From positions 1,548,501 to 1,612,500 of the forward strand of contig NZ_CP031188.1 in NCBI RefSeq assembly GCF_003344925.1: a stretch of DNA of 64,000 nucleotides, in the 5' to 3' direction. Numbering within the stretch: position 1 is the first letter of the stretch; every line of letters begins with the position of its first letter. The stretch is from Flavobacterium arcticum (lineage in GTDB: Bacteria; Bacteroidota; Bacteroidia; Flavobacteriales; Flavobacteriaceae). Below the pieces are notes generated by a model. That model was not told the DNA's origin. It was given only the letters and a program-made list of their open reading frames with translations, and did no database searches. A program made the position numbers and the translations under genes. Positions 3,909 through 42,204 of this stretch are shown one piece after another.

Positions 3909-3940
3909 TAAGTAAACCTACTTTCTAAAATAAAGAGAAG

Positions 3941-3969: not shown

Positions 3970-4019
3970 GTTATGTTTGTGTTGACTGACTGTAATTTGG
4001 AAAGTAAAAGATAACAGAT

Positions 4020-25276: not shown

Positions 25277-26882
25277 AATCTTCGTTTACATCCCATAGTG
25301 CCATTAGTTTTATAGGTTTTCCTTGCCTATAAATTACTTGTTCGGGTTGTCTTTTTTCGAGGTAGTTACCTGTGTCCCATTCTTTATTGCCATTGTCGTC
25401 ATATATTACGCGCAGTATATACTCATCTGGTAACATGCCATCGAAGTTTATTTGGGTTTCTCCTTCCGAGTAATATTCGGCTTTTACATCTTCACTAGCA
25501 TTTAATACCTGTAGGATTAAAGGGAATCTATTTACGTTAGATAGTTTTATTCTTAGGTTTCCGTAGTCGTTTAAAGAACGCGTAGATAGCTTATAAGTAA
25601 GCGTGTCGTTTTCTTTTTCATAAAAATCGCGCAGCGCACCTGGCATTAGGTTAAAGACATATTTTTGATCTTCTTCTTTTTCAAAATCAAATTTTAACTC
25701 TTGCTTAAAATCGTCATACGCATAGGTAAAAGGTACTGCGGTAGAGTCTTTTCGGGTAAGGGTTATCTTGGTACTGTCTATGGTAGTTAACGGCGTAGTA
25801 GTGTTTAGCGTAAATTTTTCGCGAAAGTGCAACCCGCTTTTTTGTACAGCTGTTACAGAGAGGGAATCGGCAGCCTTCATTTCTTTAAACTTGACAATAA
25901 AATCTTTTATAGAGTCGCGATAAGCCATATTCATGCTAAGCGAATCGGCTGTAATGTTGCGGGGTAACCATACTTGTACTGAGTCTTTATCCTTAATGTA
26001 AGTAGTTATGCTTTGTATGGCCTCGTTGTTGGCAGCATTGGCAACTTTAATTTTAATGTCTTTTCCTTTTGCTGTACCCTCATAACCTGCAATAAACCTG
26101 TTAATGCTTTCTTGTTTAGGTCTTTTGGCTTTAAAAGGTAACTCTTCTTTAAATAACTCTAATTGATACAGCGTGTCGTTAGGAACGCTTACGGTATAGG
26201 GTAAAAAAGCAATTTTATCGCTCTTAGGGTCATATTTATAATTGTTGTTATTGTCTTTTAAAGCAAACAGACGATACCTGCCTTCTTTCAGGTTTTGCAG
26301 TGAGTACATGGTCATGCTGTCTAGTGTGTTGGTAACATAACGCGGACGTTCTTTAAATACGGTGGAGTCGGTGTAGGTTTCGTTATCTTCATACATTAGT
26401 ATGGTAACAAAGTTATCGGGCTTTTGGCTAAAGGCATCTTTAATTTTTCCGCCCAGTGTTAGCGAGTCGATGTATGTACCTGTAGAGAATACAAACTTAA
26501 ATTGTGAGTAGGGATTACCCTCGTTGTTATCGGTAATACTTTGCCCAAAGTTAAAACTGTAGGTAGTGTTAGGCTGTAGGGTATCTTTTATTTTTATACT
26601 AATGTACTTACTAGCACTACCCATAGGGGTAATAATAGGAGCATTTTCCATAGGTGGCGAAATGATAAGCTGCTTATTTACATCTTTAATTTTGACATAC
26701 TCATCAAAATCGACACGTAACTCGGTACCATTAAATTGTGTACTCATGTTGCGCGGTGTACTTCCTGTAAGTACAGGAGCAAGCGTGTCTTTTGCTCCAC
26801 CTGTTATAGAGCCTCTTTTGGCACAACTGGTAAGCGACAGCGCAATGAAAAATATATAAAGCAGAAATCTGTTCTTCAGCAT
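25260..26882 (-). CDS. Lipoprotein with SbsA-type Ig-like domain
   Basis: 540 residues. The lipoprotein signal ends in SLTSC (Cys19 or so). It is followed by the conserved GSITGGAKDTLAPVLTGSTPRNMSTQFNGTELRVDFDEYVKI, a bacterial Ig-like (Big_5/SbsA) domain at about 30-130, and then a long beta-rich region with no known catalytic motif. Proteins of this layout are common in Flavobacteriia, attached to the periplasmic or surface face of a membrane; their role is unknown. Its 3' end overlaps that of the omega-amidase gene. Confidence 0.85.
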   Translation of the reverse strand: MLKNRFLLYIFFIALSLTSCAKRGSITGGAKDTLAPVLTGSTPRNMSTQFNGTELRVDFDEYVKIKDVNKQLIISPPMENAPIITPMGSASKYISIKIKDTLQPNTTYSFNFGQSITDNNEGNPYSQFKFVFSTGTYIDSLTLGGKIKDAFSQKPDNFVTILMYEDNETYTDSTVFKERPRYVTNTLDSMTMYSLQNLKEGRYRLFALKDNNNNYKYDPKSDKIAFLPYTVSVPNDTLYQLELFKEELPFKAKRPKQESINRFIAGYEGTAKGKDIKIKVANAANNEAIQSITTYIKDKDSVQVWLPRNITADSLSMNMAYRDSIKDFIVKFKEMKAADSLSVTAVQKSGLHFREKFTLNTTTPLTTIDSTKITLTRKDSTAVPFTYAYDDFKQELKFDFEKEEDQKYVFNLMPGALRDFYEKENDTLTYKLSTRSLNDYGNLRIKLSNVNRFPLILQVLNASEDVKAEYYSEGETQINFDGMLPDEYILRVIYDDNGNKEWDTGNYLEKRQPEQVIYRQGKPIKLMALWDVNEDFNLGG

Positions 26883-26946
26883 GGTGTATTCTTTAACTGC
26901 ACAAAATAACGATTATATTCAGTTTAATTAAAATGTTTTTTAAAAT

Positions 26947-27630
26947 TTAAGAGTGGGCATAGGCAATAGTTGCTATGCTCAGTTTACTATTGGGTGTTTT
27001 TAGTAACGCTTTACCGCACGACTCTAATGTTGCTCCTGTAGTGATAACGTCGTCTATCAGTAAAAAGTGTTTGCTACTATCAGCATCGGTATAGGTAACA
27101 TCAAATGCACTGCCTATAATAGCTGCCCTTGCATCTCGGTTCTTTTTGGTTTGTGTTTTGTTGTAAGTAGTACGCAGTAATATATCTTGGTTATAGTTTA
27201 CGTTAAGCCCTTCGGCTAAGGCTTTCCCGAACTCGGTAACTTGGTTGTACCCACGTTCGCGAAGTTTTTTGGGGTGTAGTGGTACGGGTATTACATCGGT
27301 GACAGATTGTAGTGCACCTACATTTTTTAGTTCGTGGGCATACCATTGCCCCATGAGTTTGCCAATGTCCTGCTGTCCTTTGTACTTGAGGTTATGAATA
27401 AGCTGTTGTACCAACCCCTCTTTATGAAAATACAGCAATGCCGAAGCGTGTTCTAATGGCAACCTGCCATAAAACTTTTTAAAGGTTTCATTATTTGAAA
27501 CTAAATGGTGGTGTGTGTAAGGCATTTCGTGAATACAGGCAGTACATATTGTGTGTTCGCTTTCTAGTAAAATAGTATCGCAACCCGAACAGGTTTTTGG
27601 GAATAGTATATTGATAAGGTTTTTAAGCAT
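26947..27630 (-). CDS. comF: ComF-family phosphoribosyltransferase-like protein
   Basis: 227 residues if it starts at MLKNLINILF (27630); an in-frame ATG at 27681 would add 17 atypical residues. An N-terminal four-cysteine zinc site (C14, C17, C29, C32 in CSGC...CTAC) is followed by a PRTase domain with the PRPP-binding motif LLIDDVITTGATLESC near residue 180. ComF proteins act in DNA uptake and processing of single-stranded DNA in competent bacteria; in Bacteroidota the role is untested as far as I know. It is divergent from glyS. Confidence 0.9.
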   Translation of the reverse strand: MLKNLINILFPKTCSGCDTILLESEHTICTACIHEMPYTHHHLVSNNETFKKFYGRLPLEHASALLYFHKEGLVQQLIHNLKYKGQQDIGKLMGQWYAHELKNVGALQSVTDVIPVPLHPKKLRERGYNQVTEFGKALAEGLNVNYNQDILLRTTYNKTQTKKNRDARAAIIGSAFDVTYTDADSSKHFLLIDDVITTGATLESCGKALLKTPNSKLSIATIAYAHS

Positions 27631-27798
27631 ATTCAGGTAATTGTTTAGCGGATTTAAAGATATAAAAATCAGGTTTTGCACAATAATATATTTGGCTTAT
27701 ACCTCAAGGTCTATTTAAACCTCTATGATTAACAAAAAAGGTATGTTCTTTTACCTATTTTCTAATGCATTACTGCTATGATATATAATCGCTTTTTA

Positions 27799-27806
27799 TA
27801 TTTTTG
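27799..27806 (+). promoter_or_regulatory. Candidate -7 box abutting the glyS start
   Basis: TATTTTTG matches TAnnTTTG and ends 4 nt before the ATG at 27811, so the predicted transcript would be leaderless or nearly so. Confidence 0.45.
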
Positions 27807-27810
27807 CATC

Positions 27811-29352
27811 ATGGCAAAACAAGAAGATATTTTTAAGAATGTAATTTCGCACGCTAAAGAGTATGGGTATATATTCCCATCGAGCGAAATATATGACGGA
27901 CTAAGCGCAGTATATGACTATGGGCAAAATGGTGCCGAGTTAAAAAAGAACATCCGTGACTACTGGTGGAAAGCAATGGTACAAATGCACGAAAATATAG
28001 TGGGTATAGATGCCTCTATATTTATGCATCCTACTACTTGGAAAGCATCGGGGCACGTAGATGCGTTTAACGACCCGTTGATAGATAATAAAGACAGTAA
28101 GAAACGATATAGGGCAGATGTGCTTATTGAGGATTATGCCGAGAAGCTAAACATTAAAGCCCAAAAAGAAATAGAGAAAGCTAAGAAACGTTTTGGCGAA
28201 GCCTTTAACGAAGAAGAGTTTGTAACGACCAACCCGCGTGTAGTAGGCTACCTTTCTAAAAGAGCTGAGATACTAAAACGTATGGGGCATTCGTTAGAAA
28301 CAGAGAACCTTGCCGACGTGAAAGCGCTTATTGAAGAGCTTGAAATTGCCGACCCTGATACAGGTAGTAAAAGCTGGACAGAGGTACGCCAGTTTAACCT
28401 AATGTTTGGTACTAAGCTGGGTGCTGAGGCTGCACATGCTATGGACTTGTACCTGCGCCCAGAAACGGCACAAGGTATATTTGTAAACTTCTCGAATGTG
28501 CAAAAAACAGGTAGAATGAAAATTCCGTTTGGTATTGCACAAACGGGTAAGGCGTTCCGTAACGAGATTGTAGCGCGTCAGTTTATCTTCCGTATGCGTG
28601 AGTTTGAACAAATGGAAATGCAGTTTTTTGTACGCCCAGGCGAAGAAATGAAATGGTATGAGTACTGGAAAGAAACCCGTTTAAAATGGCACATGTCATT
28701 AGGGTTAGATAAAGAAAATTATCGTTTCCATGACCACGATAAGTTGGCACACTATGCTAATGCGGCTGCCGATATAGAGTTTAATTTCCCATTTGGGTTT
28801 AAAGAGTTAGAGGGTATCCACTCTCGTACTGATTTTGACCTGAAAGCACACGAAGAGCATAGTGGTAAAAAATTACAGTTTTTTGATACGGAACTAAATC
28901 AAAACTATGTGCCGTATGTAGTAGAAACGTCTATTGGTCTTGACAGGATGTTTCTTGCTGTGTTCTCTTCGTCATTAAAAGAGGAAACACTAGAAGACGG
29001 TTCTGTACGTACAGTACTTAGCCTTCCTGCTGTACTTGCGCCAACTAAGGCTGCGGTACTGCCATTGGTTAAAAAAGACGGACTGCCAGAAGTAGCACGT
29101 GAAATTATAGAAGACCTTAAATGGGACTTTAATGTAGCCTATGATGAGAAAGATGCCGTAGGGCGACGTTACCGCAGGCAAGATGCATTGGGTACACCTT
29201 TCTGTATTACGGTTGACCACCAAACGCTGGAAGATAAAACAGTAACCATTCGTCATCGTGATAGTATGAAACAAGATAGGGTTGCCATAGCCGACCTTAG
29301 AAATATAATCAATGAAGAGGTTTCTGTAAGAAAATGGTTGATGAAGATGTAA
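27811..29352 (+). CDS. glyS: Glycine--tRNA ligase
   Basis: 513 residues from the ATG at 27811 (MAKQEDIFKNVISHAKEYGYIFPSSEIYDGLSAVYDYG in two runs: MAKQEDIFKNVISHAKEYG and YIFPSSEIYDGLSAVYDYG), the usual N-terminus of the dimeric alpha2 glycyl-tRNA synthetase; an ATG at 27778 would add 11 residues upstream of the probable promoter. Class II motif 2 is in KAFRNEIVARQFIFRMREFEQME and motif 3 in ETSIGLDRMFLAV. The anticodon-binding domain (LPAVLAPTKAAVLPLV onward) is complete. Single copy, followed by a terminator. Confidence 0.95.
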   Translation: MAKQEDIFKNVISHAKEYGYIFPSSEIYDGLSAVYDYGQNGAELKKNIRDYWWKAMVQMHENIVGIDASIFMHPTTWKASGHVDAFNDPLIDNKDSKKRYRADVLIEDYAEKLNIKAQKEIEKAKKRFGEAFNEEEFVTTNPRVVGYLSKRAEILKRMGHSLETENLADVKALIEELEIADPDTGSKSWTEVRQFNLMFGTKLGAEAAHAMDLYLRPETAQGIFVNFSNVQKTGRMKIPFGIAQTGKAFRNEIVARQFIFRMREFEQMEMQFFVRPGEEMKWYEYWKETRLKWHMSLGLDKENYRFHDHDKLAHYANAAADIEFNFPFGFKELEGIHSRTDFDLKAHEEHSGKKLQFFDTELNQNYVPYVVETSIGLDRMFLAVFSSSLKEETLEDGSVRTVLSLPAVLAPTKAAVLPLVKKDGLPEVAREIIEDLKWDFNVAYDEKDAVGRRYRRQDALGTPFCITVDHQTLEDKTVTIRHRDSMKQDRVAIADLRNIINEEVSVRKWLMKM

Positions 29353-29377
29353 TATTCATTTTCCTTTTTATGAATAT

Positions 29378-29406
29378 AAACGCCTCCACATTGTGGGGGC
29401 GTTTTT
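29378..29406. terminator. Terminator after glyS
   Basis: AAACGCCTCCACA (29378-29390) with TGTGGGGGCGTTT (29392-29404), one G-T pair, T-run following. Confidence 0.85.
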
Positions 29407-29460
29407 AATTTTTCTTTATTCGTTATATTTACCAGCTATATATATTAATGGTTTCTAAAT

Positions 29461-29904
29461 ATGGAAGAAAGAGAGCTAATAATCTTAAAAAAGTCGCTTA
29501 AAATAATCGGAGACTTTGCAGAAAGGTGCGATTATGTAAATTCTGCACATGAATATGTGAAAATTCATGAACGAAATATAGAATCATTACATTCATTAGC
29601 TTCAATAAGAGGTTCTCAATATTTTTATGACAGAATAAATAAATATCCAAAGATATCTGTTGAAGAATTAAATGAGTATTTAAAAGTTAAAAGAAAAGAG
29701 GTAAGCCTTATCCGCTTTATTGGAGGACTGCTTATAGATAAACTATTTAGACTACTGATGTCTAGAGGGAATACTTTTAAATTTATAGAAAAGAAAGTGC
29801 AGTTGATTAGTAAATTGAATAATGATTTGATTTTGGTTATTGAAAACCCACACTATGAATTACTAGATGCTGAGCGTAAAAAAATGAATCGTAAATATGA
29901 GTAA
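29461..29904 (+). CDS. Hypothetical protein
   Basis: 147 residues, cytoplasmic by appearance (no signal peptide). Predominantly helical and basic at the C-terminus. One moderately hydrophobic segment (RFIGGLLIDKLFRLLM) is amphipathic rather than clearly membrane-spanning. I do not recognise it. It lies 49 bases before a small lipoprotein gene on the same strand without an intervening terminator, so the two may form a unit. Confidence 0.5.
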   Translation: MEERELIILKKSLKIIGDFAERCDYVNSAHEYVKIHERNIESLHSLASIRGSQYFYDRINKYPKISVEELNEYLKVKRKEVSLIRFIGGLLIDKLFRLLMSRGNTFKFIEKKVQLISKLNNDLILVIENPHYELLDAERKKMNRKYE

Positions 29905-29953
29905 TACAAAAGCTTAGATTTGTTGATTTTTTATAATTTAATACATAATATCA

Positions 29954-30334
29954 ATGAGAAAATATTTTATTCTTTTAGTTTCTTTTTCCTTACTTGGCTG
30001 CCTATCAAAAAAAGAGGAGGAAGAAGGTTTTGTTTGTGAACAGGAAAACAGAGTCGTAAAGCTTGAATTTGAAAACGGGCAAGAATATTTAAAATTAAAT
30101 CAGCCTACTGAGTTAAGGACTTCTTTTAAGAATATAAAACGTGCAGAATCTAGTATATATGGTATAGGTATTAGAATGTTAGGCAAGAAATGCGGGGATA
30201 ATTGTTTTTTGTGTTCTGTAACCGTTAATGAAAAATCTGTAGTTGATGGCAAATATGAAATAATAGTTAACTATAGAGTAGATGATGACAAGGAATTAAA
30301 GAAGTGTAAATTTCTTATTCCTGTAGAAGAATAA
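29954..30334 (+). CDS. Small lipoprotein of unknown function
   Basis: 126 residues. The signal MRKYFILLVSFSLLGC has lipobox LLGC with Cys16. The mature protein is beta-rich with four further cysteines (FVCEQ, KKCGDNCFLCS, KKCKF). The segment QPTELRTSFKNI and the ending YEIIVNYRVDDD resemble an Ig-like or GldM-type beta domain only loosely. The terminator overlaps the stop codon. Confidence 0.6.
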   Translation: MRKYFILLVSFSLLGCLSKKEEEEGFVCEQENRVVKLEFENGQEYLKLNQPTELRTSFKNIKRAESSIYGIGIRMLGKKCGDNCFLCSVTVNEKSVVDGKYEIIVNYRVDDDKELKKCKFLIPVEE

Positions 30335-30361
30335 AAAAAGCTCCCGATTGGGAGCTTTTTT
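30333..30361. terminator. Shared terminator between a lipoprotein gene and thiL
   Basis: Stem AAAAAAGCTCCC with GGGAGCTTTTTT around GATT; serves the plus-strand gene and possibly thiL on the minus strand. Confidence 0.85.
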
Positions 30362-30381
30362 ATTTATATAGAATTAAAAAA

Positions 30382-31434
30382 TTATTCTTCGTCGTTAATG
30401 GCATTCCAACCGCGGGCTTTAAGTGCTATTTTAGTATTGGCACGGGTTATCAGGTGTGCACCTTCGCTTTCCTGCGTCATGTGCCCGATAATGCTAAAAT
30501 TAGGGTTCGCCTTAATCTTCTCGAAGTCTTCCATTTTTATGGTAAACAGTAATTCGTAGTCTTCGCCACCATTTAGAGCTACGGTAGTGATATCAATATT
30601 AAACTCTTCGCATACGTTTATCAGTTGCGGGTCTAACGGAATTTTATCTTCATACAGGTTACAGCCCACGTTGCTCTGCTTGCACAGGTGCAGTATCTCT
30701 GACGATAACCCATCAGAAATATCAATCATTGCGGTAGGTTGTATTTCAAGGGCTTTTAGCAGCTCTTTTACATCTTTACGGGCTTCGGGTTTTAACTGAC
30801 GCTCGATAAGATAATCGTATGCCTCTAAATCGGGCTGATTATTAGGGTTCACTTTAAATACTTCTTTCTCGCGGTCTAGTACTTGCAAGCCCATATAGGC
30901 TGCGCCTACGTCGCCACTTACTACAAGCAGGTCGGTATCAGTAGCACCTACGCGGTAGGTAATATCGGCTTCTTCGGCCTCGCCAATGGCGGTTATCGAG
31001 ATAATTAGTCCTTTTTGCGAAGAGGTCGTGTCGCCACCTACGATATCTACATCATATACCTTGGCAGCATGACGAATACCGCTGTAGAGTTCCTCTAATG
31101 CTTCCAGCGGGAAACGATTAGATACTGCTATGCTTACCGTTATTTGGGTAGGTTTGGCGTTCATAGCACAAATATCAGATAGGTTTACTACCACGGCTTT
31201 GTAGCCTAAATGCTTTAACGGCATATAGGCAAGGTCGAAGTGTACGCCCTCTACCAGCATATCGGTGCTTATTACGGTGCGCTTGTCTTTAAAGTCGAGT
31301 ACAGCAGCGTCGTCGCCAATACCTTTTAGGGTACTAGGTTGGTTTATCTCGATATCTTTGGTAAGGTGGTCTATCAGTCCGAATTCGCCCATGCTCGAAA
31401 GGCTGGTGCGTTCTTGGTTTTTATCTTCTAACAT
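30382..31434 (-). CDS. thiL: Thiamine-phosphate kinase
   Basis: 350 residues. The N-terminus EFGLIDHLTKDI and GIGDDAAVLDF carry the ATP/Mg-binding signature of ThiL (PurM/AIRS-like fold); TTDMLVEGVHFD, GYKAVVVNLSDICAMNA, VGGDTTSS and MIDISDGLSSEILHL are further family motifs. It phosphorylates thiamine monophosphate to the diphosphate cofactor. Slightly longer than the enterobacterial enzyme, as is usual in Bacteroidota. No TPP riboswitch is evident upstream; a -7 box lies 39 nt from the start. Confidence 0.93.
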   Translation of the reverse strand: MLEDKNQERTSLSSMGEFGLIDHLTKDIEINQPSTLKGIGDDAAVLDFKDKRTVISTDMLVEGVHFDLAYMPLKHLGYKAVVVNLSDICAMNAKPTQITVSIAVSNRFPLEALEELYSGIRHAAKVYDVDIVGGDTTSSQKGLIISITAIGEAEEADITYRVGATDTDLLVVSGDVGAAYMGLQVLDREKEVFKVNPNNQPDLEAYDYLIERQLKPEARKDVKELLKALEIQPTAMIDISDGLSSEILHLCKQSNVGCNLYEDKIPLDPQLINVCEEFNIDITTVALNGGEDYELLFTIKMEDFEKIKANPNFSIIGHMTQESEGAHLITRANTKIALKARGWNAINDEE

Positions 31435-31439
31435 AGTTG

Positions 31440-31530
31440 TCGAAAGTCGTAAAGTTTATAAAATCGTAAAAGGCAAAGGTACGACTAAGTTATAAAGTCG
31501 TAAAATGGAAAGCTGTAAAGTTTAAAACGG
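31440..31530. repeat. Degenerate short repeats upstream of thiL
   Basis: Several near-copies of GTCGTAAAGTTTATAAA / AGTCGTAAAATGG / GCTGTAAAGTTTA lie between thiL and the YoaK-like gene. The TAnnTTTG box for thiL (minus-strand TACCTTTG, 31474-31481) sits inside them. Confidence 0.5.
31474..31481 (-). promoter_or_regulatory. Candidate -7 box for thiL
   Basis: Minus-strand TACCTTTG (plus CAAAGGTA) matches TAnnTTTG, 39 nt from the start codon. Confidence 0.4.
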
Positions 31531-32262
31531 TTAGTGTTTGTGTGTTGTTACCTTATGTTTTATGGTGTAATAGCGCAGCAAGATGCTATCATATACCAAT
31601 GCTAGTAGTAAAAAACAGCAAGCAACAAGCAGTGTTTTTAGTGCAATTTCTTTATAGAGCAATCCGCCTACAATTCCGCCTGCAAAGAAAAACAGAATTA
31701 TAGAAAGTTTTAAATAAACACCTCTTTTAAGCTGCTGTAGTTCGCGTTTTTCTTTATAGAAAAAGAGTTGCGAGAGTTCGATGCCTAAATCAGTAAACAA
31801 GCCTGTGAGGTGGGTTGTCCTGACTACCGATTGTGAAACTTTTGTAACGAGTGAGTTTTGTAATCCCATAGCAAAAAGGAGTATGGCAGCGATGTATTCG
31901 GGGTGTTGTAACTCTTTTGGGTTTATAAAGAGGGCTACTCCCGCAATAATGAGTATTTCTATATTTATGGGTACAGCATAGGCTAGTGATGGCTTTTTTC
32001 GAGAAACGAGTTCGATGGTAAGGTTCGAAATAAACGAACCTGCCAAAAAGCAAAGCACATAGAAGACGCTTATAAATGCAGTTTTATAATTATTGTTTAC
32101 AAAGGCTTCCGATAAAAAGGCAAAGTGCCCTGTAAGGTTGGTGGTTAGTATGTTTAATGATAGTAATCCCGATATATTAACGATACCTGCTACAAATGAT
32201 AATAGTGTTGCAAGCCTGATGTTGTGCTGATATGCTCTTTTTTTGCCTCTGTTTTTGAGCAT
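31531..32262 (-). CDS. YoaK-family (DUF1275) membrane protein
   Basis: 243 residues with about six membrane helices. The start ATLLSFVAGIVNISGLLSLNILTTNLTGHFAFL carries the conserved aspects of DUF1275/YoaK (a G-x-D/N-x2-G helix followed by TNLTGH), and QNSLVTKVSQSVVRTTHLTGLFTDLG is the matching second half. A permease role is often suggested for the family but the substrate is not established. A -7 box (32285-32292) lies 22 nt upstream. Confidence 0.85.
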   Translation of the reverse strand: MLKNRGKKRAYQHNIRLATLLSFVAGIVNISGLLSLNILTTNLTGHFAFLSEAFVNNNYKTAFISVFYVLCFLAGSFISNLTIELVSRKKPSLAYAVPINIEILIIAGVALFINPKELQHPEYIAAILLFAMGLQNSLVTKVSQSVVRTTHLTGLFTDLGIELSQLFFYKEKRELQQLKRGVYLKLSIILFFFAGGIVGGLLYKEIALKTLLVACCFLLLALVYDSILLRYYTIKHKVTTHKH

Positions 32263-32284
32263 TGGTGTATTGTGATTAGTAGCA

Positions 32285-32292
32285 CAAATTTA
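32285..32292 (-). promoter_or_regulatory. Candidate -7 box for the YoaK-like gene
   Basis: Minus-strand TAAATTTG (plus CAAATTTA), 22 nt from the start codon. Confidence 0.4.
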
Positions 32293-32342
32293 GCGGTTTT
32301 GGTTGTGCTTTATCGTGTTTTTGGGGTATAATCTTTTATCTT

Positions 32343-32880
32343 TTCTTTTGTCTTGACACAAAAGAACCAAAAGGTCAAGGCTATAACGCCTTAGGCTAAA
32401 AATCACGGCACTCGGCTAAAGCATTCGAACTCGCTGTCGCTCAAACACCGAATGCTTCTTTACGCCATGTTTGTAATTTTCTATACGCCACGGCGTTTAA
32501 TGCCAAAGCTTCACTCATGCGTTGTGCTGTTGCTTCACCAGTTCGGGGTTTGTCATTGCGAGGAGGTACGACGTGGCAATCTTTTTTATTTCTTCTTTTG
32601 TCTTGACACAAAAGAACCAAAAGTCAAGGCTCTAACACCTAGGCTAAAAATTATTGCACTTGGCTAAAGCATTCGAACTCGCTGTCGCTCAAACACCGAA
32701 TGCTTCTTTACGCCATGTTTGTAATTTTCTATACGCCACGGCGTTTAATGCCAGAGCTTCACTCATGCGTTGTGTTGTTGCTTCGTCAGTTGGGGTTGTC
32801 ATTGCGAGGAGGTACGACGTGGCAATCTTTTTTATTTCTTCTTTTGTCTTGACACAAAAGAACCAAAAAGTCAAGGCTGG
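32343..32880. repeat. Tandem repeat island, two full 246-250-bp units plus a partial third
   Basis: Unit starts (TTCTTTTGTCTTGACAC) are at 32343, 32593 and 32839. Each full unit contains, in order, an imperfect palindrome around CTTTTGTCTTGACACAAAAG, a conserved central block (CATTCGAACTCGCTGTCGC and on), a TTTACGCCATG block, and the 31-bp element beginning GTCATTGCGAGGAGG (32552-32581 and 32798-32827). The third copy stops after the first 40 or so bases. The two full copies differ by scattered substitutions. Open frames here change character with the repeat and look non-coding. Confidence 0.9.
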
Positions 32881-33030
32881 AATGATTTTTGATAATATAT
32901 AGCATGGGAGCGTGTTTTGATTTCATTATATGATGAAATGCTTTCTTAAAATCAATTAGATAGGTTAAGAATGGGTAGAGCAAGGGTTTTTATAATAACC
33001 TCTTAATTCTTTTTAAAGATTTAAATTTAG

Positions 33031-33038
33031 TATCTTTG
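33031..33038 (+). promoter_or_regulatory. Candidate -7 box for the Panacea unit
   Basis: TATCTTTG matches TAnnTTTG, 18 nt before the ATG at 33057; the unit therefore seems to have its own promoter just after the repeat island. Confidence 0.45.
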
Positions 33039-33056
33039 ATTAAATAAAATTCAAGA

Positions 33057-33569
33057 ATGTATAATCCTATAGACATAGCGAATTATTTTCTAAAAAAATA
33101 TGGGGATAAGTCTGAAATAACTCCAATGAAGTTAGTCAAGCTTGTTTACATTGCTCATGGATGGTATTTAGGGATTAGTGATAAAGCTTTAATTGATGAA
33201 AATCCAGAGGCTTGGAAATATGGTCCTGTTATTCCTAGGGTTTATCACCACTTTAAAGACTATGGCAGAAAAGCTATAACTATAAATTATTTTCCTAATG
33301 ACCCTGATGATAATCTTCCTGAAAAAATTAAAACTTTTTTGGATAAGATATGGCAAGTGTATGGCAAGTTTTCAGCAATACAGTTAAGTGCAAAAACTCA
33401 TGAAATAGGCACTCCTTGGTATATAACATGGAGTAAATTAATTCAGAATAATAATATGAAAAGAAAAACGGGTTTTGGCATTTTTTCTTCTCAAATCCCT
33501 GATAATATAATTAAGGAATATTATAAGAAAAAAGTTGCAATTAATAAGGTTGAATCTAAATCAAGTTAA
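33057..33569 (+). CDS. Panacea-domain (DUF4065) protein, candidate antitoxin
   Basis: 170 residues. The Panacea/SocA-like core is visible: DIANYFLKKYGDKSEITPMKLVKLVYIAHGWYLG (in two runs, DIANYFLKKYG and ITPMKLVKLVYIAHGWYLG) at about 6-41, then NPEAWKYGPVIPRVYHHFKDYG (50-71) and a C-terminal helix with SAKTHEIGTPWY. Panacea proteins have been shown to act as antitoxins for many unrelated small toxins (PanAT pairs), and related SocA acts as a proteolytic adaptor. Here the gene is followed 14 bases later by a small acidic membrane protein, which fits a two-gene unit. AT-rich codon use and position beside a repeat island suggest accessory DNA. Whether it is an antitoxin is inference. Confidence 0.85.
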   Translation: MYNPIDIANYFLKKYGDKSEITPMKLVKLVYIAHGWYLGISDKALIDENPEAWKYGPVIPRVYHHFKDYGRKAITINYFPNDPDDNLPEKIKTFLDKIWQVYGKFSAIQLSAKTHEIGTPWYITWSKLIQNNNMKRKTGFGIFSSQIPDNIIKEYYKKKVAINKVESKSS

Positions 33570-33583
33570 ATCAGAGTAGTCTA

Positions 33584-33985
33584 ATGGTTGATGATGAAGA
33601 TAAACATAAAGATTTAGAGGACCTTAGTTTCATTAGTGAGGATAGCTATGAGTATACAAGTTTTGGGACTGAAAACAACAATAATGATAATCTTGCCATT
33701 AAGGAAGAGAAAAATTGGGGTAAAGAAAGAGGTGAACTTGATGGAAAGCATGGTGTAATTCTCGAGAAAGCACTTTTTCGAATTGCTGTGTTTTTTATTT
33801 ATCTATTGTCTATTTTGTTTTGTCTACTACTACTAATATGGTTTTATCATTTGGTTACACCTAAATGTTACAAATGGTTAGGTCATGAATCGGTACAATC
33901 AATAGAGAGAATTTTATTTGCCTCCACACTTTTATCTTTAGCAGGAAAATATTTTTCTAAATATGAAATCCTTAAGAGAAGTTAG
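33584..33985 (+). CDS. Small membrane protein, candidate Panacea partner
   Basis: 133 residues. The first 60 are acidic and low-complexity (DDEDKHKDLEDLSF..., NNNNDNLAIKEEK). A strong membrane helix spans about 63-91 (ALFRIAVFFIYLLSILFCLLLLIWFYHLV as ALFRIAVFFIYLL then SILFCLLLLIWFYHLV), followed by an amphipathic helix at 106-124 (SIERILFASTLLSLAGKYF) and a basic tail. No known toxin family is recognised. Some toxins paired with Panacea antitoxins act on membranes, so this could be the toxin; it could also be a membrane sensor or a passive neighbour. Confidence 0.65.
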   Translation: MVDDEDKHKDLEDLSFISEDSYEYTSFGTENNNNDNLAIKEEKNWGKERGELDGKHGVILEKALFRIAVFFIYLLSILFCLLLLIWFYHLVTPKCYKWLGHESVQSIERILFASTLLSLAGKYFSKYEILKRS

Positions 33986-34087
33986 TGTTTTTTGGTCTAT
34001 GAGAGCCTTTCTATTATTTCTTTGACTTTAAAAGAGGAATTAAATCGATTAATTGAAACTTAGATTAATAAATTTGCTTCAACACAA

Positions 34088-34120
34088 CAAAAAACCCCGA
34101 TACATAAGCATCGGGTTTTA
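34088..34120. terminator. Terminator between the Panacea unit and lepA
   Basis: AAAACCCCGAT...ATCGGGTTTT hairpin with an eight-base loop and flanking A and T runs; convergent position, may serve both strands. Confidence 0.75.
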
Positions 34121-34156
34121 TTATCTTAATTCTTTGTACTTCGTTCTTACTACTTC

Positions 34157-35953
34157 TTAATCATTCAGTTTCAACACCGCCATAAAGGCTTCTTGTGGTA
34201 TCTCTACGTTACCCACTTGGCGCATACGCTTTTTACCTTTTTTCTGTTTTTCCAGTAGTTTACGCTTACGCGATATATCACCACCATAACATTTTGCGGT
34301 AACATCTTTACGGAGTGCCTTAATGGTTTCGCGGCTAATGACCTTAACCCCAATTGCTGCCTGAATAGGAATATCGAACTGTTGGCGTGGTATAAGTTCT
34401 TTTAGCTTCTCACACATTTTTTTACCTATGTTGTGTGCGTTATCTACGTGTATTAATGCCGATAGTGCATCTACAATTTGCCCGTTAAGCAGTATATCTA
34501 CTTTAACAAGGTTAGAGGTGCGCATCCCTATAGGCGAGTAGTCAAACGAGGCATACCCTTTCGATACTGTTTTTAGCCTATCATAAAAGTCAAATACAAT
34601 CTCGGCAAGCGGCATATCAAACGTTAGCTCTACACGCTCTGGTGTAAGGTAGGTTTGGTTCGTTATAAGTCCACGCTTCTCTATACACAGGCTCATTACT
34701 TGCCCCACAAAGTCAGATTTTGTAATGATGGTTGCTTTTATGTATGGCTCTTCTACATGATCCATTCTGCTTGGTTCAGGTAGGTCGCTTGGGTTGTTTA
34801 CCACTATAGGTACTTCGGGTTCTTTTTTGCTATAGGCAAAATATGAAACGTTGGGTACGGTAGTAATCACCGTCATGTCGAACTCACGTTCTAGTCGCTC
34901 CTGAATAATTTCCATGTGTAGCATTCCTAAGAATCCACAACGGAAACCAAAACCTAGTGCTGCCGAACTTTCGGGTAAAAATACTAACGAGGCATCGTTT
35001 AGCTGTAGTTTCTCCATAGAGTTACGCAGCTCTTCATAATCCTCTGTATCTACAGGATATATACCTGCAAATACCATTGGTTTTACGTTCTCGAAACCGC
35101 CAATCATGTTTTTGGTAGGCTCTTTGGCATCGGTAATAGTATCACCCACTTTTACTTCGCGGGCTTCTTTTATTCCAGAGATGAGGTAACCCACATCGCC
35201 CGTTTTTATTTCTTGTTTAGGAACTTGGTTTAGTTTTAGCGTACCAATTTCGTCGGCAAAATATTCTTTGCCCGTAGCCATAAACTTAATTTTTTGTCCC
35301 TTTTTTATCGTGCCGTTTGTTACTCTAAAGATAACTTCTATACCACGAAACGGGTTATATACCGAGTCGAATATCAAAGCCTGTAGTGGCTCGTCTTCTA
35401 CACCTTTTGGTGGTGGTATGCGGTTTATAATGGCTTCGAGTATTTTATCTACACCCAGTCCTGTTTTTCCACTAGCAGGTATAATATCTTCATACTCGCA
35501 TCCTAATAAATCGACAATATCGTCGCTCACCTCTTCGGGGTTTGCGCTTGGTAAGTCTATTTTATTAAGTACAGGTATAATCTCAAGGTCATTTTCTAAG
35601 GCTAAGTATAGGTTACTTATGGTTTGTGCCTGTATGCTTTGTGCAGCATCTACTATAAGTAGTGCGCCTTCGCACGCTGCTATAGAACGCGATACCTCGT
35701 AAGAGAAATCTACGTGCCCAGGAGTGTCTATAAGGTTAAGGGTATATTGCTCGCCATTGTGTATATAGTCCATCTGTATAGCGTGGCTCTTTATGGTAAT
35801 ACCACGCTCGCGCTCTAAGTCCATATTGTCTAGAAGTTGCGCTTGCTGTTCGCGTGCTGTTACCGTTTGGGTAGCATCTAGCAGTCTATCGGCAAGTGTA
35901 CTTTTACCATGGTCGATATGGGCAATAATACAAAAATTTCTAATGTGCTTCAT
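34157..35953 (-). CDS. lepA: Elongation factor 4 (LepA)
   Basis: 598 residues, the family's standard length. GTPase motifs: G1 AHIDHGKST (11-19), G2 region RGITI, G3 DTPGHVDF, G4 NKIDLP. The EF-4-specific C-terminal domain is present ([26 protein letters not shown] in two runs, [15 protein letters not shown] and [11 protein letters not shown]; ends [13 protein letters not shown]). It binds the ribosome and back-translocates or aids initiation. A -7 box lies 62 nt upstream. Confidence 0.97.
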
Positions 35954-36015
35954 CTTCGTCGTTTATCAGTTGTGGGCGTGCCCAGTGGCTATACTAAAGG
36001 TAGCCAATTAATCGG

Positions 36016-36023
36016 CAAATATA
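36016..36023 (-). promoter_or_regulatory. Candidate -7 box for lepA
   Basis: Minus-strand TATATTTG (plus CAAATATA), 62 nt from the start codon. Confidence 0.4.
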
Positions 36024-36078
36024 GTTAAAGTTAGCGAGTTATAAAGGGAATAAAAATTTTAGGCTAATGGCGTAAAAA

Positions 36079-36104
36079 AAACAGCACCCCGAAGGGTGCT
36101 GTTT
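36079..36104 (-). terminator. Terminator of the large T9SS gene
   Basis: AAACAGCACCC (36079-36089) with GGGTGCTGTTT (36094-36104); read on the minus strand it is followed by a T-run. Confidence 0.85.
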
Positions 36105-36129
36105 GATTATTTTATAAAAATATAAGTTG

Positions 36130-39100
36130 TTATCTTTTTATAAATCGTGTGCTATAAGTAGCTCCTGTTTCGGTTTTTAGTTTTAGGATATAAATTCCAG
36201 TTTCTAAATCGCCAACTTGTAGCATAACTTGACTACTTCCGTTAAATGGCTGTGAAGTATTAAATACTTTTTGACCTATAGTGTTATAAATAGCTACATC
36301 TGCCGTTTGGTATGCTTCTGGCGCGTTAATGTAAAGCTCGCTTCCGCTTAATGGGTTAGGGAATAGACTAAAGTTATTTTTAGTTATAGGGTTCTCAGTG
36401 CTTAATGCAGCAGCTCTAAATACTATTGCAAATCGTGCAGCATCAGTACTCGCTTCTATATCTTCGTTTACACTAAACTCGAAGTTTGTAGTGTTGCCTT
36501 GTTCTAGTAAGGTTTCTTCGTTTAGGTAGTAATCTTTAATATATACATCAAGTTCTTCAAAGAAACCAAGTTCTAGTTTCATTACATAGTTAGATGTTCT
36601 GTAGCGCGATACAGCAAGAGGTAGTTCTTCGTCTATTGCTGGTAGGTTTCTGTTCTCCATTGCAATATACTCCTCGCCATTAAGACGTGAAATGTTTTCG
36701 TCTAAATTGCCAAATTTCTTAGCGTCATTAAAGTCAACATCGTTGTTGTATCCTTCTCTAAAATCAATTCTTAAACCATCTGCTGAGGTATGCTCATTTA
36801 TAAATTCTGTTTCAGCAAAAAGATCAAGCGCTATATATGGTGTGCCCGATGTTCTAAAAACAGCTGTTTGCGCTGCGGTCGTTCTTTTGTATGCCTCCTT
36901 AAAGGTAAGTATTGGTGTAGTACCCTGAGATGACGTTTGTACAAAGAAAGCTTGGTATGGCTGTGCATAACGAGTAGCTGCTGAGCTAGAGTTGCTTTTT
37001 TCTCCTGTAGAGGCATTTATTGTTACATAAGCCCCACGCCCTCCAGAAACACCTACTACAGGTGTGCCTCCTAAGGTAGGATCCCAAACGTAATAGAAAT
37101 TGGTAAGGTTAGAGGCGTTACCCATTACTTTATTCATGTCTACAATGGTATGATATGGGTTTGCTACAAAGTTATAATCGCCTTCTGTAGAAGAAAGACC
37201 ATTTATAGCAGTAGTACCACTTGTTATAGTTCCGGTAGCACGTAGTTTGGTATTGCTTGGCGGTGTAGCGTTTGATGTGATATCTGCACTACGAGAGCCT
37301 CTTATAAGTACACGGTATGGTGTTCCTGCTGTAAGCACATCGGTAGTATTACTAACAGCCTCCCACGATTGTGTACTGTTGTTAAATGTAAATATAGACG
37401 ATGCTCCTGATGGTTGCCAGTCGAACCCATTAGTACCATCAGCAGACTCAGGGTCTGATCCTGATGAACCATAACCTGTAATATGAATACCATATCCTGG
37501 GTTAGGATTGTCATTATAAGCAGAAGCATTTTCTTGCCAGTTTTCGCGGATGCTTGATGTGGTTGTTACTGTAGGTGTTACAAGCCTATAGGCACGACGT
37601 GCAGGAAAACATTGCTCTGTAGTGATAAGTCCAGATATACTACTTCCGCTCTCTATTTTGTCTATTTGTCCTGTTTTGTTTGGGCTAAATGAACATACTA
37701 GTGTAACGATATCATTTGTTTCGAAGTTACCAGACTCTATGTTAAGAATACCACTAAGATACATTGGGTTTAATGTACTTACACCTGCTGCATTTTCTAC
37801 AGTAAAGTTGCCAATTTCGCCATCTAATATAAATCCGTCAGGAATAGTTTGTGTAGTAGTACCTGACATGTATAATTCAGAATCTTCGTGGCTTGCATCA
37901 ATATAAGCGGTTTCATCTTTAGTGATATTGCCTTTAATGGCAAATAGTTTACCGTTTAAATTAATGGTTGCTCCTGCTCCCATACTAAGGTTGTTTGCTC
38001 CTGCATTAGCAGTTAATACAGGGTAGTTAGGTCGTCCTGTAGGGATAGTTACATCATTGTTAGCGTTTGGTATATCTGCAATTGTCCAGTTGGCAGTATC
38101 ATTCCATGCTGTACCATTGTTTCCTGTCCATTCGTTACTACTACAATTGGTATCGCCTATTATATTTTCGGTAATACCTGCTTTTAGGCTAGTGTTTTCA
38201 AAGCGTATAGTGTGGTCACCACCAATTTCAAATGATAAATCATTAAAAGTAGCCAGTCCTGTAGCATCGGTAGCTTGTGTAACTGTACCTAAAAGCTCTC
38301 CAGGACCTGTCTCCATATAAGCGGTAATCTCATAACCTGCTTGCTCTACATTATCGCCAAAAGAGTCAGCAAGTTGTACGGTAAAGTCGCTAGGCATAAT
38401 ACCATCACAGTCAGACCCTGTAGGTTGTGTTTTTACTATAATTTGTTGCGCAACGCCTATAGAGGGCTCGTTATAAGCAATAAAAGCAGGGTCAGATGAT
38501 CCTCCTGGTTGGTATATTAGTTTTCTAACACTTGTATAGTTAGCCTCTGTAATACCAAACTGCGAAATATCGGCAGTAAAGAATTTTACAGTTCTATTTG
38601 TGTTTATATAATTATTTTCTGATTGTGTACTGTCATTATTGTAAAAATCAACATTCCAGTTTGCAACCGTAGGGAATAATGAATTGTTAGAAAGATTAAT
38701 GCTTATAGAGTTACCTACAAGGTTACCATTAATGTCGGCAAAATATAATTTATCTACCCCTGTACCTGTTGGTTGAGCTATTTGACTTACTAATATATCA
38801 GGGATACCATCATTTACATTATCAATTGTTATCCCATTAATACTAAGGTTAAAAGTAAGGTCGTTACCTGTAGGTATATTAGTAAGACAAGTACCAAGAT
38901 CAAGTCCGTTTTCTCCAGTAGTTAGATAGCTTGCCTTAAGTGCCCCTGTGGTAACTAATGGGTTTATAGCAGTACTTGTCACGCCGTTAGCAACACCATC
39001 GGTTAGCGCACCAAGACCAACAAAGTACGCGTTTTGAGGGCTTGTTAATGGCACAGTGGTAATGGGTAGTGCTCTAAACTTTGTGCTTTGAAACGTTACG

Positions 39101-39318
39101 CCATTAGATGTTAATTTAGCATCATCTACTCCTGTAGAGTAAGTAACTCCAGACCAAGTAAACGCTAATAAGTTGTGCGATAAATTAGGTTGTGTACTAT
39201 TTATACTTGAAGAACTCGATGTCCAGAAATTGTTATAATCAGTATAAACTTGTGTTACCTGTGCTTGTGCAAAGTTGAATGCAAAGCACAATAGTATAAT
39301 ATAATAAATTTTTTTCAT
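36130..39318 (-). CDS. Large secreted protein, T9SS type A sorting domain
   Basis: 1062 residues. Signal peptide MKKIYYIILLCFAFNFAQAQ. The N-terminal 300 residues form a beta-rich region (VTQVYTDYNNFWTSSSSSINSTQPNLSHN...). An Ig/Big-like segment follows (IVKTQPTGSDCDG, then ATDATGLATFNDLSFEIGGDHTI), then repeats of the kind found in flavobacterial surface proteins (WTGNNGTAWNDTANWTIADIPNANNDVTIP). The last 80 residues are a T9SS type A domain (FSLFPNPLSGSELYIN, VAIYNTIGQKVF, LETGIYILKLKTETGATYSTRFIKR). It should be exported by type IX secretion. It lies 23 bases after a small C-terminally anchored protein gene, probably in one transcript. Confidence 0.92.
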   Translation of the reverse strand: MKKIYYIILLCFAFNFAQAQVTQVYTDYNNFWTSSSSSINSTQPNLSHNLLAFTWSGVTYSTGVDDAKLTSNGVTFQSTKFRALPITTVPLTSPQNAYFVGLGALTDGVANGVTSTAINPLVTTGALKASYLTTGENGLDLGTCLTNIPTGNDLTFNLSINGITIDNVNDGIPDILVSQIAQPTGTGVDKLYFADINGNLVGNSISINLSNNSLFPTVANWNVDFYNNDSTQSENNYINTNRTVKFFTADISQFGITEANYTSVRKLIYQPGGSSDPAFIAYNEPSIGVAQQIIVKTQPTGSDCDGIMPSDFTVQLADSFGDNVEQAGYEITAYMETGPGELLGTVTQATDATGLATFNDLSFEIGGDHTIRFENTSLKAGITENIIGDTNCSSNEWTGNNGTAWNDTANWTIADIPNANNDVTIPTGRPNYPVLTANAGANNLSMGAGATINLNGKLFAIKGNITKDETAYIDASHEDSELYMSGTTTQTIPDGFILDGEIGNFTVENAAGVSTLNPMYLSGILNIESGNFETNDIVTLVCSFSPNKTGQIDKIESGSSISGLITTEQCFPARRAYRLVTPTVTTTSSIRENWQENASAYNDNPNPGYGIHITGYGSSGSDPESADGTNGFDWQPSGASSIFTFNNSTQSWEAVSNTTDVLTAGTPYRVLIRGSRSADITSNATPPSNTKLRATGTITSGTTAINGLSSTEGDYNFVANPYHTIVDMNKVMGNASNLTNFYYVWDPTLGGTPVVGVSGGRGAYVTINASTGEKSNSSSAATRYAQPYQAFFVQTSSQGTTPILTFKEAYKRTTAAQTAVFRTSGTPYIALDLFAETEFINEHTSADGLRIDFREGYNNDVDFNDAKKFGNLDENISRLNGEEYIAMENRNLPAIDEELPLAVSRYRTSNYVMKLELGFFEELDVYIKDYYLNEETLLEQGNTTNFEFSVNEDIEASTDAARFAIVFRAAALSTENPITKNNFSLFPNPLSGSELYINAPEAYQTADVAIYNTIGQKVFNTSQPFNGSSQVMLQVGDLETGIYILKLKTETGATYSTRFIKR

Positions 39319-39341
39319 GTAGATAGTGTGAGAATTTGTGT

Positions 39342-39560
39342 TTAAGCTCTAAGCTTCGATTTTTTTGATAAAAGATAATAACCTGCAGTTGCGCCTAATA
39401 ATAACGTTAAGCTTGTATATCCTGATATACTTGCTGCTGCTGGTTCATCGTTAGCATCATCATCAAATTCTATTTGTGCATAAGCCGAAGTACTGCCTAT
39501 AGCTAAAGTAAAAATAATAGCAAGAAATGCCTTTTTTGTTTTGGGGGTATTCATAATCAA
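39342..39560 (-). CDS. Small exported protein with C-terminal membrane anchor (PID-CTERM-like)
   Basis: 72 residues (70 if the second ATG, 39554, is used). Signal peptide to about SAYAQ, an acidic linker (IEFDDDANDEPAAAS), one hydrophobic helix (YTSLTLLLGATAGYYLL) and a basic tail (SKKSKLRA). This is the layout of the small PID-CTERM proteins of Bacteroidota, but the Pro-Ile-Asp signature before the helix is replaced by ASISG. Such proteins are often found beside T9SS cargo, as here; their role is unknown. A -7 box is 24 nt upstream. Confidence 0.75.
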   Translation of the reverse strand: MIMNTPKTKKAFLAIIFTLAIGSTSAYAQIEFDDDANDEPAAASISGYTSLTLLLGATAGYYLLSKKSKLRA

Positions 39561-39584
39561 AGGGTTTCATTTAAAAATTAACTG

Positions 39585-39592
39585 CAAAAGTA
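39585..39592 (-). promoter_or_regulatory. Candidate -7 box for the small anchor protein and T9SS gene
   Basis: Minus-strand TACTTTTG (plus CAAAAGTA), 24 nt from the start codon. Confidence 0.4.
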
Positions 39593-39883
39593 CTGCTAAT
39601 ACTTAATTTCTTAACCATAGATTAACTGTTTTTTAACCGCTTGAAACTTGTTGTTAAAATGACTTTTATACTGTAAATATTGATGTATCATAGTTAATGA
39701 TGCAGTTGTTTTTTTTGTCTTTATGCTAAAATTTTGACAAATTGATTGTTTAGTAAATGGATAAATAAAAATTATTTTAATAGTATGCGGCTAAAAGAGT
39801 CTTATAATATTCTCTTTACACTTAGTTTTTAGGATAATAGCATAGCTGTGTCGTAATGCTAAACACACTATTGTAAATTATTG
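39593..39883. other. Divergent intergenic region, nothing further seen
   Basis: About 290 bases between the two divergent -7 boxes, AT-rich, without an open frame or strong hairpin that I can support. Confidence 0.5.
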
Positions 39884-39891
39884 TAATTTTG
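39884..39891 (+). promoter_or_regulatory. Candidate -7 box abutting the dusB start
   Basis: TAATTTTG matches TAnnTTTG and ends 6 nt before ATG 39898 (15 nt before the alternative ATG at 39907). Confidence 0.45.
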
Positions 39892-39897
39892 CACAAA

Positions 39898-40893
39898 ATG
39901 AAAGAGATGATTAAGATAGGAAATATAGAGTTGCCCGATTTTCCGTTACTACTTGCACCAATGGAAGATGTGAGCGATCCGCCATTTAGGAGATTATGCA
40001 AGCTACATGGTGCCGACCTTATGTACAGCGAGTTCATTTCGTCGGAAGGGTTGATTAGAGATGCAATGAAAAGCAGGCAAAAGCTCGATATTTTTGATTA
40101 TGAACGTCCTGTAGGTATACAGATATTTGGTGGCGATGAAGAGGCAATGGCTATGTCGGCAAAAATTGTCGAAACTGTAAATCCTGATATTGTAGATATC
40201 AACTTTGGCTGCCCTGTAAAAAAAGTAGTTTGCAAAGGTGCAGGTGCTGGAGTGCTAAAAGATATCGATCTTATGGTGCGCCTTACCAAAGCTGTTGTAA
40301 ACAGTACTCACCTTCCTGTAACGGTAAAAACCCGACTGGGGTGGGATGACGATTCTATTAACATAGATGAGGTAGCCGAAAGACTGCAAGATGTAGGTGT
40401 TAAGGCGCTTACTATACATGGGCGTACTCGTGCGCAAATGTATAAGGGGGAGGCCGACTGGGAACCTATTGCCCGAGTGAAGAATAACCCGCGTATAACC
40501 ATGCCTATTTTTGGTAATGGCGATATAGATAGCCCCGAAAAGGCATTAGAATATAAAAATAAATACGGACTGGACGGTATCATGATAGGGCGTGCTGCCA
40601 TTGGCTACCCTTGGATATTCAATGAGATAAAACACTTTTTTGAGACAGGCGAACGTTTGCCTGCTCCAACGATAGAGGATAGGGTAGAAGCAGCACGTAA
40701 TCACTTAACATGGTCGATAGACTGGAAAGGTGAGCGCGTAGGCGTGGTAGAAACGCGCAGGCATTATACTAACTACTTTAAAGGTATACCACACTTTAAA
40801 GAATATCGCCAACGTATGGTAACACTTGATAGTCCCGCCGATGTATATGGTGTAATGGATGAGGTGTTGGAAAAGTTTAGTGCTACAGTATAG
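39898..40893 (+). CDS. dusB: tRNA-dihydrouridine synthase
   Basis: 331 residues from ATG 39898 (MKEMIKIGN); a second ATG at 39907 is possible, and the TTG at 39889 is not needed. FMN-dependent TIM barrel: LLLAPMEDVSDPPFRRLC at the start, VDINFGCPVKKVVCKGAGAG with the catalytic Cys, KTRLGWDD, the ALTIHGRTRAQMYKGEADW segment and GNGDI, then MIGRAAIGYPWIF. It reduces uridines in tRNA D-loops; this is the DusB-type set of motifs. Convergent with the CBS-HEPN gene, no terminator between. Confidence 0.93.
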   Translation: MKEMIKIGNIELPDFPLLLAPMEDVSDPPFRRLCKLHGADLMYSEFISSEGLIRDAMKSRQKLDIFDYERPVGIQIFGGDEEAMAMSAKIVETVNPDIVDINFGCPVKKVVCKGAGAGVLKDIDLMVRLTKAVVNSTHLPVTVKTRLGWDDDSINIDEVAERLQDVGVKALTIHGRTRAQMYKGEADWEPIARVKNNPRITMPIFGNGDIDSPEKALEYKNKYGLDGIMIGRAAIGYPWIFNEIKHFFETGERLPAPTIEDRVEAARNHLTWSIDWKGERVGVVETRRHYTNYFKGIPHFKEYRQRMVTLDSPADVYGVMDEVLEKFSATV

Positions 40894-40933
40894 TTTTTCA
40901 TATATAATACAATATAAAGAATTACTTATTTAA

Positions 40934-41932: not shown

Positions 41933-42204
41933 ATTTTAAAGTTGAAGAGATTAAAATGAGTGTAAAAAATTTAGTTCTATTCTTTCTCTTCATCAATTAA
42001 ATTTTTAATTAATTATTGAGAACAAGCTAAGTTATATTCAAATATCAAGATGTACAATACCTATCAATGTGTATTTTTATAACTTCGTAATTATTGAAAA
42101 CGCTGTTCCAGGTGACAAGATATATGTCGACCCATTGGTTTCTGATTATAGGGATTGATGAGGTGGTAGTTAGCTTACAGTCAAATGATTAAATATAAAG
42201 CAAT
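41933..42204. other. Gene-free stretch between the CBS-HEPN and MATE genes
   Basis: AT-rich; contains one short open stretch (42051-42158) without a start codon, described under rejected observations. No promoter for the CBS-HEPN gene could be placed. Confidence 0.5.

Follow-up and report, generated by a model that had tools for sequence, protein, structure and literature searches.

The Panacea gene, its small neighbor and their chromosomal setting

The window, i.e., the whole stretch of 64,000 nucleotides from Flavobacterium arcticum that we analyzed, holds two neighboring genes on the forward strand. ORF1 (33057 to 33569) encodes a stand-alone, single-domain Panacea (SocA/DUF4065) protein of 170 aa and is the predicted antitoxin PanA. 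ORF2 (33584 to 33985) follows 14 nt downstream and encodes a membrane protein of 133 aa, the predicted toxin PanT, which homologues, alignments (A1 to A3), a structural model and signature counts place in a family here called family A. Both reading frames and their spacing agree with an initial annotation of this DNA.

That annotation had also named ORF1 a DUF4065/Panacea gene, and a Pfam search supports this with a match to PF13274 (SocA_Panacea) at 1.3e-19 and 71.6 bits, over the cut-off of 25.7. ORF1 additionally matched PHROG_1281 at 5.4e-44. Its score against the NCBIfam SocA equivalog was 93.5 bits, below the cut-off of 190, and by this score it does not belong to the SocAB systems. A weak PDB sequence match of ORF1 to oligo-1,6-glucosidase (E 0.0024) was judged to be chance. 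In A6, an alignment that comprises 12 Panaceas, H115 is invariant and Y55 nearly so (window Panacea numbering). Measured against the features used to recognize PanAT pairs (Kurata 2022), ORF1 has a PF13274 match above the curated cut-off, the distance of 14 nt lies within the 100 nt allowed, and the window copy, the one considered here, is not part of a conserved operon of more than three genes.

The description of ORF2 as a protein with an acidic N-terminus, a strong membrane helix and a basic tail is borne out by charge and hydropathy counts. Residues 1-62 contain 18 D/E and 8 K/R, residues 63-91 have a mean hydropathy of 2.37, and residues 125-133 carry 3 K/R against 1 D/E. The amphipathic helix proposed at residues 106-124 is recovered as a helix, but its amphipathy is weak, with an Eisenberg moment of 0.14-0.23; the highest moment among the ORF2 segments listed is 0.48, at residues 94-111. 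An AlphaFold2 model from a 17-sequence alignment, of modest confidence (whole-model mean pLDDT 68.9), has a long helix at 34-91, a second helix at 101-126 and a low-confidence N-terminus. A distant Pseudomonas relative, modeled from its own 15-sequence alignment (mean pLDDT 60.9), has a similar layout with helices at 24-45, 47-81 and 97-124 and two short strands between the last two. The predicted layout of ORF2 is one firm membrane helix with a second, moderately hydrophobic helix, and not a single membrane helix with a clearly amphipathic one.

As the initial annotation had found, ORF2 could not be assigned to a toxin family: none of Pfam, PADLOC, PHROGs and NCBIfam gave a match for it with E up to 1. 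No PADLOC family matched ORF1 or ORF2 at E up to 1 when the pair was compared with known anti-phage defence systems. PDB sequence matches of family A (E 0.28 and 0.92) were judged to be chance, and a fold search of the PDB gave no match. Compared with the Panacea of viral contig L006, ORF1 has a dN/dS of about 0.15 at a dS of 2.0, which is near saturation. ORF2 aligns with its L006 counterpart in two in-frame pieces (48 and 35 codons), with pN/pS values of 0.18 and 0.35 at saturated synonymous sites. Judged from these comparisons, both genes look to be under purifying selection.

As accessory DNA, the pair lies next to conserved genes, which we take to be lepA and thiL. Neither ORF1 nor ORF2 was found within a flank of roughly 1.5 kb at the lepA ends of 29 relatives. 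The thiL-like gene, which lies to the left of the pair in the window, is within reach of lepA in 6 of 18 same-genus relatives, and in L066 the gene adjoining lepA resembles the one found between lepA and thiL in the other relatives. Downstream of the pair the next gene is on the other strand, and upstream there is a repeat island at 32361 to 32887 (no strand assigned), with units of about 248 nt and three copies of a 28-mer; its tie to the pair is positional. Two more copies of the 28-mer, with 1-2 mismatches, lie about 70-75 kb upstream in the genome. The island had been read as a setting of mobile DNA. While the 248-nt units are real, the island alone does not mark an insertion, since no repeat was found to the right of the pair, the search spanning 32250 to 33050 only. 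Among the ORFs at 25000-42000 around the window copy, no phage gene was recognized by eye.

The pair was also thought to have its own TAnnTTTG box. Such a match, a possible -7 box, is present at 33031 to 33038 on the forward strand, but it is indistinguishable from chance. The window contains 100 TAnnTTTG matches where 91 are expected, and none of its four matches to TTTG-18/22-TAnnTTTG falls at 33031-33038; the box is therefore no evidence of a promoter.

Pairing of family A with Panacea and the family signature

Members of family A are found in Bacteroidota as well as in phages of Pseudomonas and Halomonas. Besides ORF2 itself, phmmer found 7 relatives and a profile search 17, and a profile that includes the phage forms gave 31, 15 of them (P0019-P0033) of the Pseudomonas type. 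Named phages gave no tblastn match to ORF2 itself, and the relatives there were reached via Panacea and via the partner in phage Pacha. In named plasmids, no family A member was found. The family is rare in bacterial genomes: matches were seen in 4 of 299 genomes of the genus (two real), in 4 of 395 in the phylum draw (all real) and in 4 of 395 in the order draw (one real, the window itself), with the window genome counted in all three figures. Six candidates were dropped as chance matches, namely L005 (Mixta, 46 residues at 28%), L009 and L010 (in-frame stops and no Panacea), and L058-L060 (several stops and a position antisense to a long gene).

The pairing was counted from both sides. Searches with the small protein only gave the window, L004, L006, L008, L054, L055, L056, L057, L061 and 15 phage records, and a Panacea lies immediately upstream in all 23 places that have upstream sequence, across two phyla and phages. 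L057 is left out of these 23, as it sits at a contig edge that starts 50 bases before its ORF. Pseudomonas phages account for 14 of the 15 phage records, and their partners share 94-100% identity. Frames are broken in the partner of L006 and L056 and in the Panacea of L008. The initial annotation had named homologues lying mostly away from Panacea genes as the outcome that would speak against the pairing; the opposite was found. Two of the phage copies have an integrase-type gene nearby. The partner gene of Halomonas phage H4907 directly adjoins one whose product is annotated as an Arm DNA-binding domain protein, probably an integrase, and that of Pseudomonas phage Pacha_bin_1 is 0.45 kb away from an integrase.

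For the Panacea side, viral sequences were scanned with A6, whose 12 Panaceas have A or B partners (family B is described below), and families were called by thresholds above the best of 2000 shuffled decoys. A Panacea is present in all of the best 80 of 326 viral loci. The downstream gene in these 80 belongs to family A in 22, B in 32, C in 8 and D in 7, and is unclassified in 11. Hence 69 of the best 80 have a membrane partner, a figure drawn from the A/B-linked clade that does not apply to Panacea at large, and in 65 of the 69 the partner starts no more than 60 nt before or after the Panacea stop. Near-identical coliphage copies make up 24 of the 32 viral B loci, and L092 is the same contig as L006, so that it is counted in both the partner-side and the Panacea-side tallies. 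The unclassified loci are three at a contig end (L127, L132 and L169), an A-like fragment (L125) and seven others (L107, L117, L120, L126, L131, L136 and L138).

Families C and D are also small membrane proteins in the Panacea partner slot of viral contigs. Family C has a PTNIAG...FGSA-type end and family D a length of about 165-172 aa; their loci are L106, L108, L114, L123, L099, L101, L105 and L135, and L100, L102, L103, L109, L111, L113 and L115, respectively.

Within family A, conservation is concentrated directly after the membrane helix. In alignment A2, 19 of 23 invariant columns fall within residues 86-126. Among 36 non-redundant members, the near-invariant residues from position 60 on are H89 (35/36), P93 (36/36), W98 (30/36) and L99 (34/36), with H89 and P93 kept across phyla. 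These form the signature HxxxP...WL, which in ORF2 covers codons 89-99 (33848 to 33880, forward strand). Its general form, HxxxP...[WFY][LIV], directly follows the membrane helix in 35 of 36 family A proteins and in 0 of 23 members of other Panacea-linked membrane families, although the 36 were chosen by profiles containing the signature region, so that this count and contrast are partly circular. Shuffling the C-terminal 70 residues gave the signature in 0.8 of 36 on average. The weakest member, L130, scores 23.4 bits against 18.4 for the top decoy and is without the signature. By our searches, family A is without a name in the four libraries covered (Pfam, PHROG, NCBIfam and PADLOC), and the signature offers a handle for annotating it. 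It may already figure among the 88 clusters of Kurata 2022.

Membrane partners in one Panacea clade

In a tree of 47 Panacea rows, all 10 rows with an A partner and all 8 with a B partner fall in one clade of 28 rows (99/94). The clade holds none of the soluble 'S' partners, and its other 10 rows carry no A, B or S label. Among these ten, L044 and L045 (identical) and L049 have a downstream protein that lacks a membrane segment; thus, the clade is not purely membrane-linked. The nearest kin of the window Panacea is that of viral L006, which has an A partner and shares 65% identity over 150 columns. These two are sister (97/89) to a group with a prophage Panacea from the same genome whose partner belongs to family B. 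The A and B rows do not separate but interleave, and the tree needs four label changes for A, two of which are forced by well-supported branches. Partner swapping within PanA clades has already been reported by Kurata 2022 (PMC8832971).

The second Panacea of this genome, in L003 (3244-4610; G000:C1, about 1489243-1490609), is probably in a prophage, as its neighbors are presumably terminase-like genes. Its partner (126 aa, 3717-4097) belongs to family B, and an identical partner occurs in viral contig L098. A third gene then follows (156 aa, 3244-3714), whose product combines hydrophobic stretches with a tail resembling a coiled coil.

Family B also connects the clade to an experimentally validated antitoxin. 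In coliphage PhiR47_1 the family B partner is annotated as PanT, and an E. coli chromosome stretch identical to that of the phage lies beside Panacea WP_000287252.1, where the B partner is WP_000019187.1. The PhiR47_1 Panacea (L039) equals WP_000287252.1 in 157 of 157 residues and falls in the 28-row clade. WP_000287252.1 is listed as a PanA in Table 1 of Kurata 2022 with membrane toxin WP_000019185.1, which depolarizes membranes and forms pores (PMC8832971).

Our sequence comparisons gave no firm homology between families A and B, although a remote relationship is conceivable. Hhalign gave probabilities of 14% and 5%, with nominal E-values of 0.0019 and 0.0073 over 14 and 40 columns. An apparent link from iterated jackhmmer was dropped, because iteration from the window seed also recruited decoys: of 649 shuffled or reversed sequences, 41 had entered after 3 rounds, 68 after 5 and 83 after 8, with E-values down to about 1e-14. 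L121 and L130 match both the A and the B profile at weak E-values, and among the best 80 of 326 viral loci no partner was above the decoy threshold on both. The activity of family B hence transfers to family A by position and layout, and not by proven descent. A short hydrophobic N-terminal motif, seen by eye across A to D as a shared Panacea-binding site, was rejected. A different, DxxAKKE-like motif learnt on A failed to transfer to B, C and D (P 0.67, 0.18 and 0.23).

Panacea occurs with other partners outside this clade. PF13274 was found in 20 of 397 genomes in the draw from the bacterial family, and other Panacea lineages of that family have at least nine loci followed by soluble proteins. 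One genome of the family (G513) has seven Panacea matches (L015, L030 and L032-L036), and small proteins with hydrophobic segments come after several of them. L016, L018, L020 and L021 encode longer Panacea proteins (about 336-339 aa) that carry additional N-terminal sequence; at L016, L020 and L021 a small protein of 115-118 aa that has no membrane segment comes before the Panacea, a possible toxin-first order. Cylindrospermopsis phage Cr-LKS4 (L042, 1822-3389) has a Panacea with no obvious partner, located between two annotated CRISPR arrays.

Interpretation and comparison with known Panacea systems

The ORF1-ORF2 pair is probably a PanAT toxin-antitoxin pair with a membrane-depolarizing toxin. 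This reading is supported by the Panacea domain, the adjacency in 23 of 23 places, the clade kinship with the validated PanA WP_000287252.1 and purifying selection; the gene arrangement and the presence in phages are likewise observed directly. For the window pair itself, we infer toxicity, the binding site, depolarization, the trigger and a role in defence, as follows. In a type II module of the PanAT kind, the Panacea would be the antitoxin and the 133-aa protein the toxin. During normal growth, the Panacea would bind the acidic, probably disordered N-terminus and the helix before the membrane segment, keeping the toxin inactive. Loss of the Panacea, or its sensing of a trigger, perhaps phage infection, would release the toxin, whose membrane helix and HxxxP...WL/second-helix region might then act in the inner membrane to cause depolarization and growth arrest. 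The module would travel on phages, the window copy being accessory chromosomal DNA. A role in defence is plausible given the phage setting. Among the observations that count against parts of this explanation, the strong extramembrane signature exceeds what one would expect a generic pore helix to require, some Panaceas of the 28-row clade have no membrane partner, and ten further pairs predicted by NetFlax were non-toxic in E. coli.

The first of these bears on whether the toxin forms a pore at all. It might instead hit a specific membrane target, e.g., a divisome, respiratory or secretion protein, via HxxxP...WL and the second helix, within the same kind of toxin-antitoxin pair. The concentration of invariant columns at 86-126 and the retention of H89 and P93 across phyla would fit this, as would the Panacea-paired Gelidibacter toxFtsL, which affects the divisome without depolarization. 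We nevertheless consider it unlikely, as all three membrane PanTs tested by Kurata 2022 depolarize (PMC8832971), and as ORF2 has no convincing match to any described family or solved structure in the libraries and the PDB searched. The pair could also be a non-toxic phage accessory operon in which the Panacea helps or senses while the membrane protein excludes superinfecting phages or aids lysis. Exclusion systems and holins characteristically involve small membrane proteins, and many of the copies come from phage genomes or viral contigs, including the two with an integrase-type gene nearby. Yet the ORFs at 25000-42000 around the window copy showed no phage gene recognizable by eye, the 28-row clade includes a validated antitoxin, and four different membrane partners share one slot, which makes an accessory operon quite improbable. 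That ORF2 is a chance neighbor unrelated to the Panacea is hardly credible in view of 23 adjacent places out of 23 in two phyla and phages, even though the very many partners of Panacea mean that single cases can mislead (PMC8832971).

A bolder reading is conceivable, if rather doubtful: family A could be a separate class of Panacea-controlled membrane effector, largely phage-carried, in which the near-invariant, interfacial histidine and proline of HxxxP, together with the WL-helix behind them, would serve as a specific channel gate or as the place where one host membrane protein docks, with Panacea as an interchangeable sensing lid for at least four effector families (A, B, C and D). How one small domain neutralizes many unrelated toxins, and what triggers their release, are questions raised for Panacea in PMC10440598. 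With two related Panaceas in one genome, one having an A partner in the window and the other a B partner in a prophage, and with four families in one slot, direct swap experiments between natural pairs are possible. Exchange of N-termini or membrane parts between A and B would show which part each Panacea recognizes.

The proposal of a membrane-acting toxin of a new type stands in part. A Panacea with a membrane-acting partner is well supported, but the type is not new, as small membrane PanT toxins with charged N-termini are validated as depolarizers, two of the three membrane PanTs tested forming large pores, in Kurata 2022, where Panacea pairs with very many partners (PMC8832971). A stand-alone Panacea with a small membrane toxin is thus published, and this toxin family is unnamed in the four libraries. 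Among the closest known systems is the E. coli PanA-PanT pair (T3, Kurata 2022), which like the window pair has a stand-alone Panacea first and a small membrane protein with a long charged N-terminus second. It is prophage-borne, and its Panacea shares the 28-row clade with that of the window. Unlike family A, its toxin type (family B) has two hydrophobic segments, with an LLGT[ST]..[SN][VI].G-like second segment, and lacks HxxxP...WL (0/13). By sequence homology, ORF2 could not be placed among the T3-type membrane PanTs (the hhalign probabilities of 14% and 5% given above).

The Bartonella choladocola (apis) pair (T12; NetFlax D11) resembles the window pair in its stand-alone Panacea and in a toxin with an unstructured N-terminus and a helix before the membrane segment; T12 and D11 are presumably the same cluster, judging from the species. 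This PanT is a membrane depolarizer (Kurata 2022, PMC8832971), and for PanT_D11 a prediction backed by antitoxin mutants has the Panacea bind the toxin at its unstructured N-terminal region and at a short helix that precedes the TM (PMC10440598). The ORF2 model, of modest confidence, fits the published layout, with WP_077993242.1 compared by description only, and since ORF2 shares this layout, an N-terminal Panacea contact may be expected for it as well. The B. choladocola PanA substitutions Y56A and H120E destroy neutralization (PMC10440598), and Y55 and H115 of the window Panacea may be the equivalents of Y56 and H120.

Gelidibacter toxFtsL:PanA (NetFlax D9) likewise joins a stand-alone Panacea to a membrane toxin, but unlike ORF2 this toxin has 281 aa with GAF and FtsL-like domains and blocks division without depolarizing. 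In Caulobacter SocAB, SocA has a Panacea domain as in the window, but the window Panacea falls well short of the score required of a SocA equivalog, and whereas SocB acts at the sliding clamp, ORF2 matches no toxin model.
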